Part shown: positions 10,238 through 32,942 of the stretch, piece after piece
Numbering within the stretch: position 1 is the stretch's first letter
How the letters are laid out: the number at the start of each line of letters is the position of its first letter
DNA from: Owenia fusiformis
Taxonomy: Eukaryota; Annelida; Polychaeta; Sabellida; Oweniidae
Reading direction: 5' to 3'
Assembly: GCA_903813345.2 (NCBI GenBank)
Contig: CAIIXF020000005.1
Location: forward strand, 27,779,375-27,843,374
DNA: 64,000 bases
Translations under genes and position numbers: made by a program
Notes under the pieces: model-generated
Told to the model about the DNA's origin: nothing
Seen by the model: only the letters and a program-made list of their open reading frames with translations
Database searches by the model: none

Positions 10238-13064
10238 CTAAACTTTGTCAGCGAGTTCTGTAAAAAGAATTTGAAGGAAGTAAGCTAGCTTTTTAGTGTC
10301 TCTCAGAATTAGGAAATCCCGTTGTCTCCTTATCATGCCAGAAACAATGTTCCTATATTCTACTCGCATCACATCCCTAGTAACGTGATCATCGATCACA
10401 ATTTGTTGACGCCTGAGCTCAACGTCGACATTGCACATAAGGTTACGTAGTTTATCTTCTATACTATGGATATCTGCTTTAAACACTCCACCTTCGTGTG
10501 TTATTTCATCTAGACGTACTTGTTCAATGTGAACTGCAACAAGGGAAAGATTGTGGTATGCTTGTAACAACGTCTCGCTTATCTGGAATTAAATAATACA
10601 ACAACTCTAAAAGCTGCACGTAATGATTTCTGCTTTTGACATAAAGGCCTATAGTAGGTTTACAAACGTATCAAATACTCGTATTATCTAAAAACAAAGG
10701 TATTGAGAAAAACACCAGCTGATGAAAAAACAATTGTTTGTTCTTTAGCAACCTTAAAAGCTAACAAATAAATTGAGGTTAAAGATATGATAGTTACTTA
10801 CTGGCTTCCCTGACAGTGTTGTAATACTTTGGGGTGTTGGGTTCACATGGGGCATACCATTAAGTCTGTAATCTTCTAATAATGCTGGAATATCTGGATT
10901 ATCAAATCGCTTTGAAGTCTGGAAACACATGAATACCAGTCAACATTAGTTCTATAAGTTTGGCAAGAAAAATTGGATATTATAGGGAACCAAAGTTTTG
11001 AGCTGGAATGTAGGTATAGTAAGAACATGTAAGAGTAAAATAATCCTTTAACAATTATCATGAAATTATTTGTTCAAATTATGATATATTCAATGATGGG
11101 TTTGTAAAGATCAGATTTGAGGAAGTACGTTGCATTGTAAATCTGCCCAAATGCATGAATATGTGTGAAAATAATGTTTTTTGTTTATTAATTAAACCCG
11201 AATAGGATTAAACATTGGATTATGTGGTATTATTTTGCGCTATGAATGTATAAATGATAAGGTTATGTTTACTTTATATGTTATGTTATTGTTATTTATA
11301 TTGATGTTATCAATGTTAATTTTCCGTTATTTTCTGTTAAGATTGTTCTGGGGAAGTACATCTGTGATTTAGAATTCATGAACTCATGAAATCACTAAAT
11401 CATTTTATTATTAAAACATTAAAACAACTACTTTGTAGTTGTATGTTATAGTTATAGTTTTTATGGATTATGGCGACGGCTTTTGTGAATGGATGTTGAC
11501 CCTTTGAAACGCCTATGGACTTGGAGACTGGATTATATCTATCCCACATCATTTGAGACTGAATACTCTATCTTGTATGAGTACTTGTATCTACAACAAT
11601 TTTTGAGGTTATGAGTATTGGCTATCAATTTGCTATCAATTGGCTATCAATTTCTAATTTTTTCTTCAACATGTATTGTAATGACTTCAGTATGAATGAA
11701 ATGTCCCTTGGTCTACTGGTCTTGGATTGTGATATTGATTCTTGAATGGTAGGGGGAAAGGGGGTATTATACATTGTTTCCTTTCACGTTAGATCATGGT
11801 TTTGGGCTATATGGGGTTTGTTTTTCTTGACTGGTATGCACTTAGAGTTTGCTTTTTCTTGCTAAGTTCCATTACAACTTTTGGTCCTTTCCCTTTGGCA
11901 CTAGTGCTTATATATTGTGATCTTTAAATGTATATTACCATAAGCACATTATCATATCATATAATTAACTGAAGCCAATTACATATTTAAAGTGAAATTC
12001 ATACAAAATATTATTATACGATGTTTCCTCCATGTCATTACAAATGTAATTAGTCATTGTCTTTTCGAATTTTTATTGTGTTTTTTAAAAAAAGAGATTC
12101 AACAAGTTTAACCTCTGATGACATGCATTGCATTTATTATTTTGGCCTGATATAAATTACGGATCTGTTTGGGATTGTATGATCGTATGCAATGATGCAG
12201 GACACATTGCTTTGAAAATCATAGACATTGCTTGTAATTGTGTCACATTCTTGTATAACTCTCATTCTAGCTTTAAAATCAATCAGAAGACACGGGGCTT
12301 TTTCACAAAGCATACGTTCTGCTTCATGAAGCGTCTGTTATAAAATGTTAAAATGTGAAAATTTTGAAAACCAGAACTTGTGATTAAAGATTTTTTGATG
12401 TAATTACAATAACATAGGACAAACAAACATGATGTGTACCAGTTGAAATGGTAGCCAAGACAGTTAAATAATATCAAGAAGAAAATATGGGTTTCAAATG
12501 AAATCAGCTATTTTAATACTATATGGAAAATGACAATAAAGAATGAAATGAATGAGAGAGAATGGATGTGAAATGGAATAAATAGACAGTAAAATCATAG
12601 AATATGTAAATTGTAATCAAAACATAATGTGATAAAAACATTAATACATAGACTATGTAATTGAAAATTATAAATTTCTAGATTTACCCTGAATACTTAC
12701 GAATTTTGATAAAAGTCTTTCTGTTACATCGAGAGCTCTCCCAGCCATGGTTCCAATAATCGATAGTGTGTCAGCTAAAGTATTTCCGGGTGTAGGAACA
12801 CTACTCCAATCGTAATGAGAATCAGTGCTGACATCTATGTTACATGGATCAACCCAGCTAGATACTGGTGTTGTTGGAATACAGTTCACTGGACTGAGCG
12901 AGGCAATCAGTATAACTGCTGGTAGGATATATTTTAGAATATCTGAAAATAAACAAAAAGTATTGAAACTGACAAACAGCTTACAGGATATTTCAGCTTA
13001 AAGGGAGACTTGTAGATTATATATTGTGATATTCCATGTAAAACTAACCTTTTAAGATCTCCAT
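10238..13064 (-). CDS. Putative secreted helical cytokine, CNTF/CLCF1/IL-6-like (4 exons)
   Basis: Exons on the minus strand are 13049-13064, 12701-12942, 10802-10918 and 10238-10582. Donors are GTTAGT, GTAAGT and GTAAGT. Acceptors end TTTTCAG, TTTCCAG and ATTCCAG. Phases 1, 0 and 0 join into 239 residues. The ATG has A at -3 and G at +4, with an in-frame stop 9 bases upstream. Residues 1-26 look like a signal peptide (lysines, then ILPAVILIASLS, ending VNC). Predicted amphipathic helices lie at about 59-88 (A), 128-152 (B), 157-186 (C) and 196-237 (D). The order of short matches follows CNTF/cardiotrophin: NGMP in the A-B loop, LLQAY starting helix B, HEGGVFKADIHS opening helix C, and FLILRDTKKLAYFLQ in helix D. 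A sequon NLS is at 136. Cys39 and Cys175 could pair. If real, it would signal through gp130/LIFR/Domeless-type receptors (inference). An additional symmetric exon inside the 1.8-kb second intron cannot be excluded. The gene model is firm. Family assignment is inferred from pattern, not from a search. Confidence 0.72.
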
Positions 13065-13093: not shown

Positions 13094-13148
13094 AGCTTAA
13101 TATTAAGCTGTAAAATGATTTAATCTGAATTCAAAACAACTTATAAAG
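13094..13148 (-). promoter_or_regulatory. Candidate core promoter of the cytokine-like gene
   Basis: On the minus strand a TATA-like CTTTATAAG (13140-13148) lies ~76 bases before the start codon. Between them is a perfect 16-bp palindrome, AGCTTAATATTAAGCT (13094-13109). Both positions suit a core promoter or 5' UTR of a gene with a short leader. No transcript data are available. Confidence 0.3.
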
Positions 13149-27777: not shown

Positions 27778-29576
27778 CATGGTGACAGAAAAAACGGATA
27801 TAATTTTTTGCTGATTTTTTGTAACAAAATTATTTCAAGCCACTATTTTGGACTGACTGAGAGACAGATGGACAAATCGATGTTAAAGGAACATTCCTTG
27901 CCAGACTATTTCTCTCCTGATATGGTAGCTACAATCATATGTATACATATTCATATTTAGCAAAACACAGGAAAATGTTTTCATATGGTCAATATTGATC
28001 ATTTAAAAATGTAGTACTCATTTCCAGTAAGCTGTCATATTTTAAGATTTCTTTCAGGAAGTGATGTCATCGACTCTCACCTGTTATAACCTTGCCTATC
28101 ACAGTATAGGAAAGAAGTACAAAATCACTTCAAGACAAGAAGCCCTTATCTTCTGTGTAAAAATATTTTCAGGAGTTGTCAACTTAGAACTAAAGAAGAG
28201 ATCATCAAGATCATCAAGAGGATTTAAATCATAGACCAAATTGAAAAAATATACAACTGGTTTAGTAATTCTAATAGCTCCTTACCTAATGTTATATGCA
28301 AAGTTGAGAGTCGATGACATCACTTCCTGAGTGAAATTTTAAAAGATGGCAGCCTACTGGAATTGAGCACTACATTTTTAAGTGATCAATATTGACCATT
28401 TCAAAACTTTTTTTCCGTGTTTTGCTAAACTTGCAAAGTATGTATATGGTTATAGTTACCATATTAAGAGAGAGATGGTCTGGCAAGGAATACCCGTTTA
28501 AGTAAAAAGGCTGAAAAAAACGGATATAATTTTTTGCCAATTATTTGTAACAAAATTACCTAAGATACAACTACTCTTTACAATGACATGGCTTTTTGAA
28601 ATGCAAAACACCTGAAATTATTTGTAAAGCTAGGAAATGGGCCAAAATTGAATTTCACGAGACAAAAAGGGCGACCATTTTGAAATCAGGCAAGCTTTTG
28701 AACCAGGAGTCATAGGGGAGTTTTTTGTATTGATGTTGAACAAAATTAACTTAAAACGGGAATCCTATCGACAGAGGGTTTAAGGTAAATGGTCCAAAAG
28801 TCGATTTTGCGAAACAGATGGACAAATCAATGTTAACTAAAATGGCTGAAAATAAAAAAATGGATATAATTTTTCGCTGATTTTTCGTATTAAAATTATT
28901 TCATACATCTACTCTTTACATTGACATGGATTTTTACAATGTAGGACACTTGAAATTATTTGTAAAGCTAGGAAATGGGTCAAAAGTGAATTTCGCGAGA
29001 CAAAAATGGCGGCCATTTTGAAAATAGGCGAGCTTTTGAACCAGGAGTCATAGGGGAGTTTTCTGTATTGATGTTGAACAGAAATAACTTAAAACAGGAA
29101 TCCTATCGACAGAGGTTTTAAAACGTGCCACTGTTATTGACGGAAAGTTGATTTCGCGAGTCAGATAGACAAATCAATGTTAACTAAAATGGCTGAAAAT
29201 AAAAACGGATACAATTTTTTGCCAATTATTTGTAACAAAATTATTTCATATATCTACCCTTTACATTGACACGGATTTTTACAATGTAGGACACCTGAAA
29301 TTATTTGCAAAGCTAGGAAATGGATCAAAAGTGAATTTCGCGAGACAAAAGTGACGGCCATTTTGAAAATAGGCGAGCTTTTGAACCAGGAGTCATAGGG
29401 GAGTTTTCTATATTGATGTTGAACAGAAATAACTTAAAACAGGAATCCTATCAACAGAGGTTTTAAAACGTGCCACTATTGTTGACGGACGGACAGACAG
29501 GCAGACGGACGGACGTACAGACAGACGGACAGACGGACAAGTGAGTGATTGCAAAAGCTCACCATGTGAGCTAAAA
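27778..29576. repeat. Tandem ~345-bp repeat ending in GACGGACA tract
   Basis: Units begin at AAAACGGATATAATTTTTTG-type sequence near 27792, 28517, 28856 and 29204. Each carries GTAACAAAATTA, GAAATTATTTG-AAAGCTAGGAAATGG, GCGAGCTTTTGAACCAGG and GTTGAACA-AA-TAACTTAAAA. The first unit is split by a 611-bp insertion. The last ends in a GACGGACA/GACAGACG tract (29484-29540) and AAAAGCTCACCATGTGAGCT. Similar tracts are common in genomes of marine invertebrates (recollection, unverified). Confidence 0.8.
27887..28497. mobile_element. TTAA-inserted foldback element inside the tandem repeat
   Basis: TTAA occurs on both sides (27883-27886, 28498-28501). The next repeat units show the empty site: ATCAATGTTAACTAAAATGG, against ATCGATGTTAA at the left junction and TTAAGTAAAAAGG at the right. 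Arms start ATTCCTTGCCAGAC and pair for ~200 bp, through GGAAGTGATGTCATCGACTC and its complement. TTAA duplication and AGG start suit Kolobok or piggyBac-type MITEs. A related half-element lies at 43190-43320. Confidence 0.82.
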
Positions 29577-30720: not shown

Positions 30721-32520
30721 TAAACTGAATTAGTTTGGTTTCTTTCACCATGGTTATATTAGCATTGTAGGCATTATCCCGATCACAATGGTATATAACA
30801 ATGCTATATTTGAGAAAATGCACGGGGGAAGATTCAATCCTTATAGACACAGGTCCTTTTAGCAAAATTCAGGAAATTTGATTTTGAGATTTCTTGAAAT
30901 TTCTTTGGGGTAGGGGTACACCTTACAGTTTGCATCACAGATTGAGTACAGCCAACTGAGGGGAACATGGCCATATGGGGTATCATTGGAAAGCGATTTC
31001 TACTATCTTTCGAGTGATATCCATTTCAAGGCGTTCAATTGCATATTATGACGTCATAACGTTAGGGAGAAACAAAGGTTCATTCAAAACTGCCCAGAAG
31101 ACAATTGAATGGCACGGGAGAATGGAATTCGGGGTGCTTGGCACAATGGCCTCGCCCCCAAAACACCAAAGTTGCTTCAAAATGTCACGATTTTGGTACC
31201 ATTGTTCAGCTAAGATACAGTCCTTTAATATGATATGCGCTATTAGGCTTCTTAATGAACTTAAAAACCTCAAAAGGGGACAAAACCTACAAAATACCCC
31301 AAAAATGCGCCTTCTAATAGTAAACTGAATTAGTTTGGTTTCTTTCACCATGGTTATATTAGCATTGTAGGCATTATCCCGATCACAATGGTATATAACA
31401 ATGCTATATTTGAGAAAATGCACGGGGGAAGATTCAATCCTTATAGACACAGGTCCTTTTAGCAAAATTCAGGAAATTTGATTTTGAGATTTCTTGAAAT
31501 TTCTTTGGGGTAGGGGTACACCTTACAGTTTGCATCACAGATTGAGTACAGCCAACTGAGGGGAACATGGCCATATGGGGTATCATTGGAAAGCGATTTC
31601 TACTATCTTTCGAGTGATATCCATTTCAAGGCGTTCAATTGCATATTATGACGTCATAACGTTAGGGAGAAACAAAGGTTCATTCAAAACTGCCCAGAAG
31701 ACAATTGAATGGCACGGGAGAATGGAATTCGGGGTGCTTGGCACAATGGCCTCGCCCCCAAAACACCAAAGTTGCTTCAAAATGTCACGATTTTGGTACC
31801 ATTGTTCAGCTAAGATACAGTCCTTTAATATGATATGCGCTATTAGGCTTCTTAATGAACTTAAAAACCTCAAAAGGGGACAAAACCTACAAAATACCCC
31901 AAAAATGCGCCTTCTAATAGTAAACTGAATTAGTTTGGTTTCTTTCACCATGGTTATATTAGCATTGTAGGCATTATCCCGATCACAATGGTATATAACA
32001 ATGCTATATTTGAGAAAATGCACGGGGGAAGATTCAATCCTTATAGACACAGGTCCTTTTAGCAAAATTCAGGAAATTTGATTTTGAGATTTCTTGAAAT
32101 TTCTTTGGGGTAGGGGTACACCTTACAGTTTGCATCACAGATTGAGTACAGCCAACTGAGGGGAACATGGCCATATGGGGTATCATTGGAAAGCGATTTC
32201 TACTATCTTTCGAGTGATATCCATTTCAAGGCGTTCAATTGCATATTATGACGTCATAACGTTAGGGAGAAACAAAGGTTCATTCAAAACTGCCCAGAAG
32301 ACAATTGAATGGCACGGGAGAATGGAATTCGGGGTGCTTGGCACAATGGCCTCGCCCCCAAAACACCAAAGTTGCTTCAAAATGTCACGATTTTGGTACC
32401 ATTGTTCAGCTAAGATACAGTCCTTTAATATGATATGCGCTATTAGGCTTCTTAATGAACTTAAAAACCTCAAAAGGGGACAAAACCTACAAAATACCCC
32501 AAAAATGCGCCTTCTAATAG
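30721..32520. repeat. Three identical 600-bp tandem units
   Basis: Units 30721-31320, 31321-31920 and 31921-32520 appear identical base for base, each starting TAAACTGAATTAGTTTGG and ending CGCCTTCTAATAG. Open frames of 117 codons (plus) and 139 codons (minus) in every unit overlap each other, have no domain I recognise, and vary only where a unit joins its neighbour. I treat them as non-coding. Identity means very recent amplification or an assembly artefact. Confidence 0.92.
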
Positions 32521-32942
32521 GTTGAAGACCACAGTAGAGTTTCCCATAGGTGGCCATTATAACATTTTACCCTGTATCTTATTAACGATTAGTATCCAAG
32601 CCTAGTGCAATATACCACAGTGTTCGGGAGAGACTCGCCTAGCCTGCTATAACAATCTTACCATGGGTTGTCCACCGAATTTTTGAGATAAATAAACTTG
32701 AAGACACTAACCCCCTCTATCGTCAGATTTCTCAGAGAATTCTGGTAAAATCACCAAGGTCAAAATCACTCCGCCGCCAGCTTAAAGTGAGATTTCCCAC
32801 TGAACTTTGGCATGTTTTCAGATAAATCAGGACCTACCTTATAAATATTTAGTCCCAATTCACTTCCCAAACGCCAGATGGCGCTCCAATGGGGTAGGAA
32901 AGGAGAAAAATGACTTTTTATACAGAAAACCAAATTACTAAC
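32520..32942. repeat. Right 423-bp direct repeat flanking the 600-bp array
   Basis: Second copy of the 30257-30679 segment, starting directly at the end of the third 600-bp unit. The shared phrase ACTATATCCTA follows both copies, directly here and after the ~30-bp insertion on the left. Confidence 0.85.

Follow-up and report, generated by a model that had tools for sequence, protein, structure and literature searches.

In the annelid Owenia fusiformis, a four-exon gene on the minus strand of a 64,000-nucleotide stretch of DNA (the window, in what follows) probably codes for a secreted class I-type cytokine of the long-chain, four-helix kind, belonging to an expanded family that would act through a gp130/Domeless-type receptor and JAK-STAT. 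We give this reading a probability of roughly 0.7. A preliminary description of the gene had proposed an IL-6-family-like helical cytokine of the CNTF/CLCF1 branch; a secreted four-helix class I-like ligand is indeed the best-supported reading, but the CNTF/CLCF1 branch is unsupported.

The window gene is laid out as follows, together with a further open frame in its second intron.

Exon 1, window 13064-13049, minus strand: 16 nt with the ATG and the start of the putative signal peptide, ending in phase 1; GT donor.
Exon 2, window 12942-12701, minus strand: 242 nt with the rest of the putative signal peptide, the N-terminal W-x-x-P-C segment and predicted helix A, ending in phase 0; AG acceptor and GT donor.
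Third coding exon, window 10918-10802, minus strand: 117 nt with the A-B loop and its invariant NGMP proline, phase 0 to phase 0; AG acceptor and GT donor.
Last exon, window 10582-10238, minus strand: 345 nt with predicted helices B, C (conserved cysteine) and D (RDFLILRD motif) and the stop codon TAG; AG acceptor.
Cassette-like in-frame ORF, window 12334-12161, minus strand: 58 codons in the second intron, phase 0/0, open between AG and GT; probably not an exon.

Joined in phases 1/0/0, the four minus-strand exons (16 + 242 + 117 + 345 nt) give 239 amino acids and a stop, with AG acceptors on exons 2 to 4 and GT donors on exons 1 to 3. Exons, clean splice sites, phases and protein length thus all stand where they were first described. 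If the 58-codon cassette were included, the protein would have 297 amino acids. Dinucleotide shuffling of the second intron produces an equally long AG-ORF-GT arrangement 146 times in 500, and two paralogue loci, compared locally, show no convincing counterpart; the four-exon model is therefore kept. The hydrophobic start of the protein reads by eye as a signal peptide, and the protein is probably secreted. A TATA-like TTTATAAG is seen by eye on the minus strand at window 13140-13147, ~77 bases 5' of the start codon. Elsewhere, the window carries a tandem array of 2.9 copies of a 345-bp unit (28498-29489) and three near-identical units at 600 bp spacing with repeated ORFs on both strands (30960-32566), the latter units exceeding the limit of 500 of the tandem-repeat search.

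The gene belongs to a family of at least ten firm members (itself and nine paralogues) and one probable member. The 498 Mb genome (525 contigs) was searched first with the last exon of the window gene and next with exons recovered on the way; the best candidates were scored, so the family count is a lower bound and further members may exist. A search of this assembly for COX1 gave no match. Two subgroups are recognized, with contigs abbreviated as C1, C3 and so on.

Subgroup 1: window gene, on contig C5 (the window being C5:27779375-27843374).
Subgroup 1: C1a, C1:4.427 Mb, last exon 63% identical to that of the window gene, E 2.4e-40.
Subgroup 1: C5b, C5:26.086 Mb, E 3.99, then an open frame and a local last-exon match of 1.9e-6 (small set).
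Subgroup 1: C3a, C3:9.924 Mb, E 6.4e-53 with C5b as query.
Subgroup 1: C11 member, C11:17.959 Mb, E 2.7e-15 with C5b as query.
Subgroup 2: C6 member, C6:28.032 Mb, E 1.18 with the C11 member as query, then local matches.
Subgroup 2: C5c (C5:21.706 Mb), C7 (C7:16.232 Mb), C5d (C5:25.663 Mb) and C1b (C1:60.633 Mb), E 2.7e-62 to 3.7e-8 with the C6 member as query.
Subgroup 2, weaker: C3b, C3:29.634 Mb, E 2.61 with the C6 member as query.

By E-value the link between the subgroups is weak, the best being 3.4e-5 in a small local set. They are joined because they also have in common the exon layout, an N-terminal tryptophan and cysteine, the invariant proline of the A-B loop and the I-x-R-D of helix D. 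The probable eleventh member, C3b (C3:29633400-29638400), is the most divergent: its RDYLILRD is replaced by KRDYKILHES, and its basic tail is longer.

The layout of the window gene recurs across the family, where exon ends were assigned by hand and then checked by script. The tiny exon 1 was found in four of the 11 members (16, 13, 16 and 16 nt), always in phase 1. The script found exon 2 in eight, its length modulo 3 being 2 in all; the exon 2 of the C11 member was assigned by eye. The A-B loop exon, found in ten, is a multiple of three throughout, and a last exon with an AG acceptor is present in all 11, one of them weak. Since the paralogues repeat it, the structure of the window gene is more than chance. 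In vertebrates, IL-6, G-CSF, growth hormone, LIF and their kin have a tiny first exon in phase 1 followed by phase 0 introns, and the same layout is found in this family.

The family is under purifying selection. Values of dN/dS are 0.49 (C6/C5c), 0.34 (C6/C7), 0.27 (C5c/C7) and 0.16 (C5b/C3a), with exon 2 included in the comparisons among C6, C5c and C7 only. In a fifth pair, the window gene and C1a, its nearest paralogue, dS is saturated; in the 152 codons compared from the last two exons, first, second and third positions differ 51, 33 and 96 times, an excess at the third position.

The four strings by which the protein was first recognized (NGMP, LLQAY, HEGGVFKADIHS and FLILRDTKKLAYFLQ) are all present in the window protein. 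Within these strings, the alignment of nine members leaves nothing invariant but the proline of NGMP and, in the last string, I-x-R-D; LLQAY retains its tyrosine in six of the nine, and HEGGVFKADIHS is not kept. In all nine members counted, the number of cysteines before helix A equals the number in helix C, six members having one of each and three having two of each; leader cysteines are left out of the count, as are C1b and C3b, which are without an exon 2 model, and the nine rows are related sequences rather than independent cases. Such matched counts are the pattern that disulfides between the N-terminus and helix C would leave. LIF and OSM have disulfides of this kind, and the family may have them too.

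With helix limits set by eye and values averaged over the nine-member alignment, helical periodicity is significant for helix A (reached by 3 of 2000 shuffles), helix B (72/2000) and helix C (25/2000). For helix D it is not significant in these nine members (357/2000), nor is it in the N-terminal segment, the A-B connection or the C-D connection (1042, 1451 and 415 of 2000). With helices again placed by eye, the connections of the window protein measure ~39 (A-B), ~7 (B-C) and ~27 (C-D) residues, the long-short-long arrangement that an up-up-down-down topology needs. An AlphaFold2 model of the last exon alone, made without an alignment, is poor (mean pLDDT 48.4) and places helices at 3-28, 38-58, 66-93 and 96-113. 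Its third helix crosses the assumed C-D connection and its break falls inside helix D, and a model of this quality proves nothing for or against a four-helix bundle. A four-helix fold is what the family probably adopts.

The genome also contains a gene for a class I cytokine receptor of the gp130 type.

gp130-type class I cytokine receptor gene, C1, ~39113000-39125150, minus strand: PF09240 match with flanking exons.

The PF09240 model has three sub-threshold places in the genome, of which the one at C1 39.125 Mb corresponds to the first half of a cytokine-receptor homology module. The remaining three exons of the two-domain module lie in the flanks of this locus, and the joined exons encode 200 amino acids. 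These surpass the Pfam cut-offs of LIFR_D4 (1.4e-8), EpoR_lig-bind (6.6e-7) and IL6Ra-bind (1.5e-5), and the second domain, at 21.7 bits, lies under the fn3 cut-off of 25. In the PDB the module matches human gp130 best (E 5.8e-13, residues 2-192), followed by the IL-31 receptor (3.9e-12) and the prolactin receptor (7.5e-12). A search of the same genome for a gp130/LIFR/Domeless-type receptor had been proposed along with the cytokine, and this gene is its positive outcome. C-X9/10-C-X-W is given as a cytokine-receptor motif in PMC1963337, and the C1 receptor has C-X9-C-X-W (CRSYQWKGMTCTW), the mark of a cytokine-receptor homology module. Over the 200-residue module that was compared, it resembles gp130, the IL-31 receptor and the prolactin receptor in the alignment of both domains to gp130, in C-X9-C-X-W, in WSxW and in the fn3-like exons that follow downstream, seen by eye to ~C1:39.100 Mb. 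It departs from them in its sub-threshold second domain and in an imperfect WSxWS, the sequence YWSEWK keeping WSxW with the last serine of WSXWS replaced.

As a route to a receptor, the pattern GxWSxWS was of no use: it matches 679 times, against 439 for a control pattern, and its clusters among the first places listed look like thrombospondin repeats; one such cluster, at C1:6125890-6143478, probably consists of thrombospondin type 1 repeats, whose motif we take these matches to reflect. The fn3 model proved unspecific, with the best 150 of 462 candidates scored. A human gp130 fragment gives 47 matches in the genome, the best at E 0.001 and none at the C1 receptor locus. The PF09240 match on C9 was set aside as a receptor, sitting in a gene with Ig, fn3 and DB-module exons. 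That region (C9:7356001-7386000) has another exon with a cytokine-receptor-like C-X9-C-X-W (CALVNATAVKCMW); the protostome distribution of the DB-module makes an invertebrate genome likely. With the C1 receptor as query, no second receptor locus was found among the best candidates scored, the next match having E 1.18.

Similarity to known cytokines is faint. For the window protein and all ten paralogues, two of the latter being partial models, every cytokine family stays below its Pfam cut-off, and neither the window protein nor profiles of three and nine members match a cytokine in the PDB. The sole cytokine family to appear, below threshold, is Unpaired (PF15972), with C5c at E 0.047 and C6 at E 0.14, in both the best sub-threshold match; its best score is 13.7 bits against a cut-off of 27, several unrelated families have similar E-values, and C5c and C6 are closely related to each other. 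The Unpaired model, run against the genome, yields two weak matches, neither in the cytokine-like family. The Drosophila ligands Upd1-3, which bind Domeless, would share with this family an invertebrate setting, a gp130-like receptor and several ligands for one receptor, and the match that links them to two members, over the helix B region, is far below the cut-off.

A further comparison was made with hhalign, in which a ten-member alignment was run against 13 human cytokines, each with 25 window-shuffled decoys; three of the 13 sequences, LIF and CNTF among them, were verified. IL-6 scores highest (23.2, 0/25 decoys as high, probability 5%) and aligns collinearly through all four helices, A to D, in 140 columns. 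CNTF (22.4, 1/25) stays in register through helix A, the A-B loop, where GMP meets GMP, and helix B to where C begins. LIF (17.6, 1/25) aligns over helices A to C and CLCF1 (14.7, 1/25) over helix D only. For the remainder, the decoys that do as well number 3 for GH1, 3 for LEP, 9 for IL11, 9 for PRL, 12 for IL23A, 13 for CTF1, 15 for OSM, 18 for CSF3 and 19 for EPO, the values for GH1 and leptin, of an unrelated branch, being about what a weak match would give. In a previous, nine-member run CNTF led with 22.4, ahead of prolactin (22.1, aligned out of register), IL-6 (21.3) and a reversed CNTF (18.8). CTF1, OSM and IL11 do not stand out from their decoys, and all probabilities are at or below 5.2%. 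The scores hint at the IL-6 family and do not prove membership.

Weak hhalign scores and the lack of a significant match to any cytokine profile are also what would be seen in a lineage-specific family of secreted helical proteins (reproductive proteins or effectors, for example), neither homologous to class I cytokines nor using a gp130-type receptor. Expanded and divergent families of secreted proteins are common, and a similar overall appearance can arise in helical secreted proteins peculiar to one lineage. We nonetheless consider this explanation unlikely, as it would have to account for the co-occurrence of a tiny phase-1 exon 1, a phase-0 intron after helix A and matched cysteines in the N-terminus and helix C, along with connections that run long, short, long and the presence of a gp130-type receptor gene in this genome.

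Among class I cytokines, the family resembles several IL-6-type ligands in different respects. It is like LIF and OSM in size, order of elements and tiny first exon, and one subgroup carries a pair of cysteines ahead of helix A and another pair in helix C. In LIF, bonds join C12/C18 with C131/C134, and there is a third disulfide. The family is without the cysteines for that third bond, has a different helix D motif and shows no significant similarity to either protein. IL-6 has ILR at the start of helix D in common with the family, but its cysteines lie elsewhere and it has five coding exons, as against four in the window gene.

True membership of the CNTF/cardiotrophin/CLCF1 branch, as originally suggested, is improbable. 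The window gene shares with these proteins a GMP in the A-B loop, the AY motif in helix B and an intron site after helix A; the single intron of CNTF falls after codon 38 and lines up with intron 2 of the window gene. CNTF was the top scorer of the first hhalign run, and its in-register alignment from helix A to the start of C, with 1 of 25 decoys as good, speaks for the branch. IL-6 scores as well, however: CNTF is slightly ahead of it with nine members and slightly behind with ten, all of these scores being weak, and cardiotrophin behaves like a decoy (13/25). CNTF has a single cysteine, hence no pair between N-terminus and helix C, and no signal peptide. The ILRD core of the family's helix D motif is closer to the IL-6 end (HLILRSFKEFL) than to CNTF, and the string most like CNTF, HEGGVFKADIHS, is not kept by the paralogues. 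With so few positions invariant in the quoted strings, namely the NGMP proline and I-x-R-D, with no Pfam or PDB match over threshold and with profile scores near noise, the CNTF/CLCF1 assignment goes too far.

A class II-like helical cytokine of the interferon/IL-10 kind is more improbable still. The cysteine pattern alone would allow it, some type I interferons tying the N-terminus to helix C, but a tiny first exon in phase 1 is characteristic of class I and the genome holds a class I receptor with C-X9-C-X-W; class II ligands were covered by the general Pfam and PDB scans only. That the window gene is a chance or pseudogene ORF put together by eye is very improbable, its paralogues being conserved with identical exon phases and under purifying selection.

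For a secreted class I-type cytokine, the preferred reading, the following course of events may be envisaged. The leader of the precursor would be cleaved, and one or two disulfides would tie the N-terminal segment to helix C. The four helices would pack in the up-up-down-down manner, the A-B and C-D connections being long and the B-C link short. The ligand would then bind a gp130/Domeless-type receptor encoded in the same genome, for which the C1 receptor is the most likely partner, and the bound receptor would switch on JAK-STAT.

A 2026 survey traces IL6R-like receptors to molluscs and places IL-6-family ligands in vertebrates only, suggests that invertebrate IL6R-like receptors are activated by other, mostly unknown ligands, and names as invertebrate ligands only Upd and a crustacean lectin (PMC13203501). 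Two surveys using BLAST, this one included, report no IL-6-family ligand in invertebrates (PMC8226699; PMC13203501). No earlier report of this cytokine-like family is among the literature matches listed, and preprint work may exist. With the odds about evenly balanced, an IL-6-class family of ~11 genes with LIF-like disulfides, facing the one gp130-type receptor detected in this invertebrate, may supply the ligands so far missing for the gp130-like receptor in animals other than vertebrates and insects. The common ancestor of bilaterians would then already have had IL-6-type cytokines together with their receptor, and the IL-6-family ligands of vertebrates, the Upd proteins of insects and this family would form one lineage. 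Having a candidate ligand family and a gp130-type receptor in one genome makes the question of the ligands of invertebrate receptors directly testable, and the family, both diverse and alignable, can be used for tracing the origin of the long-chain cytokines.
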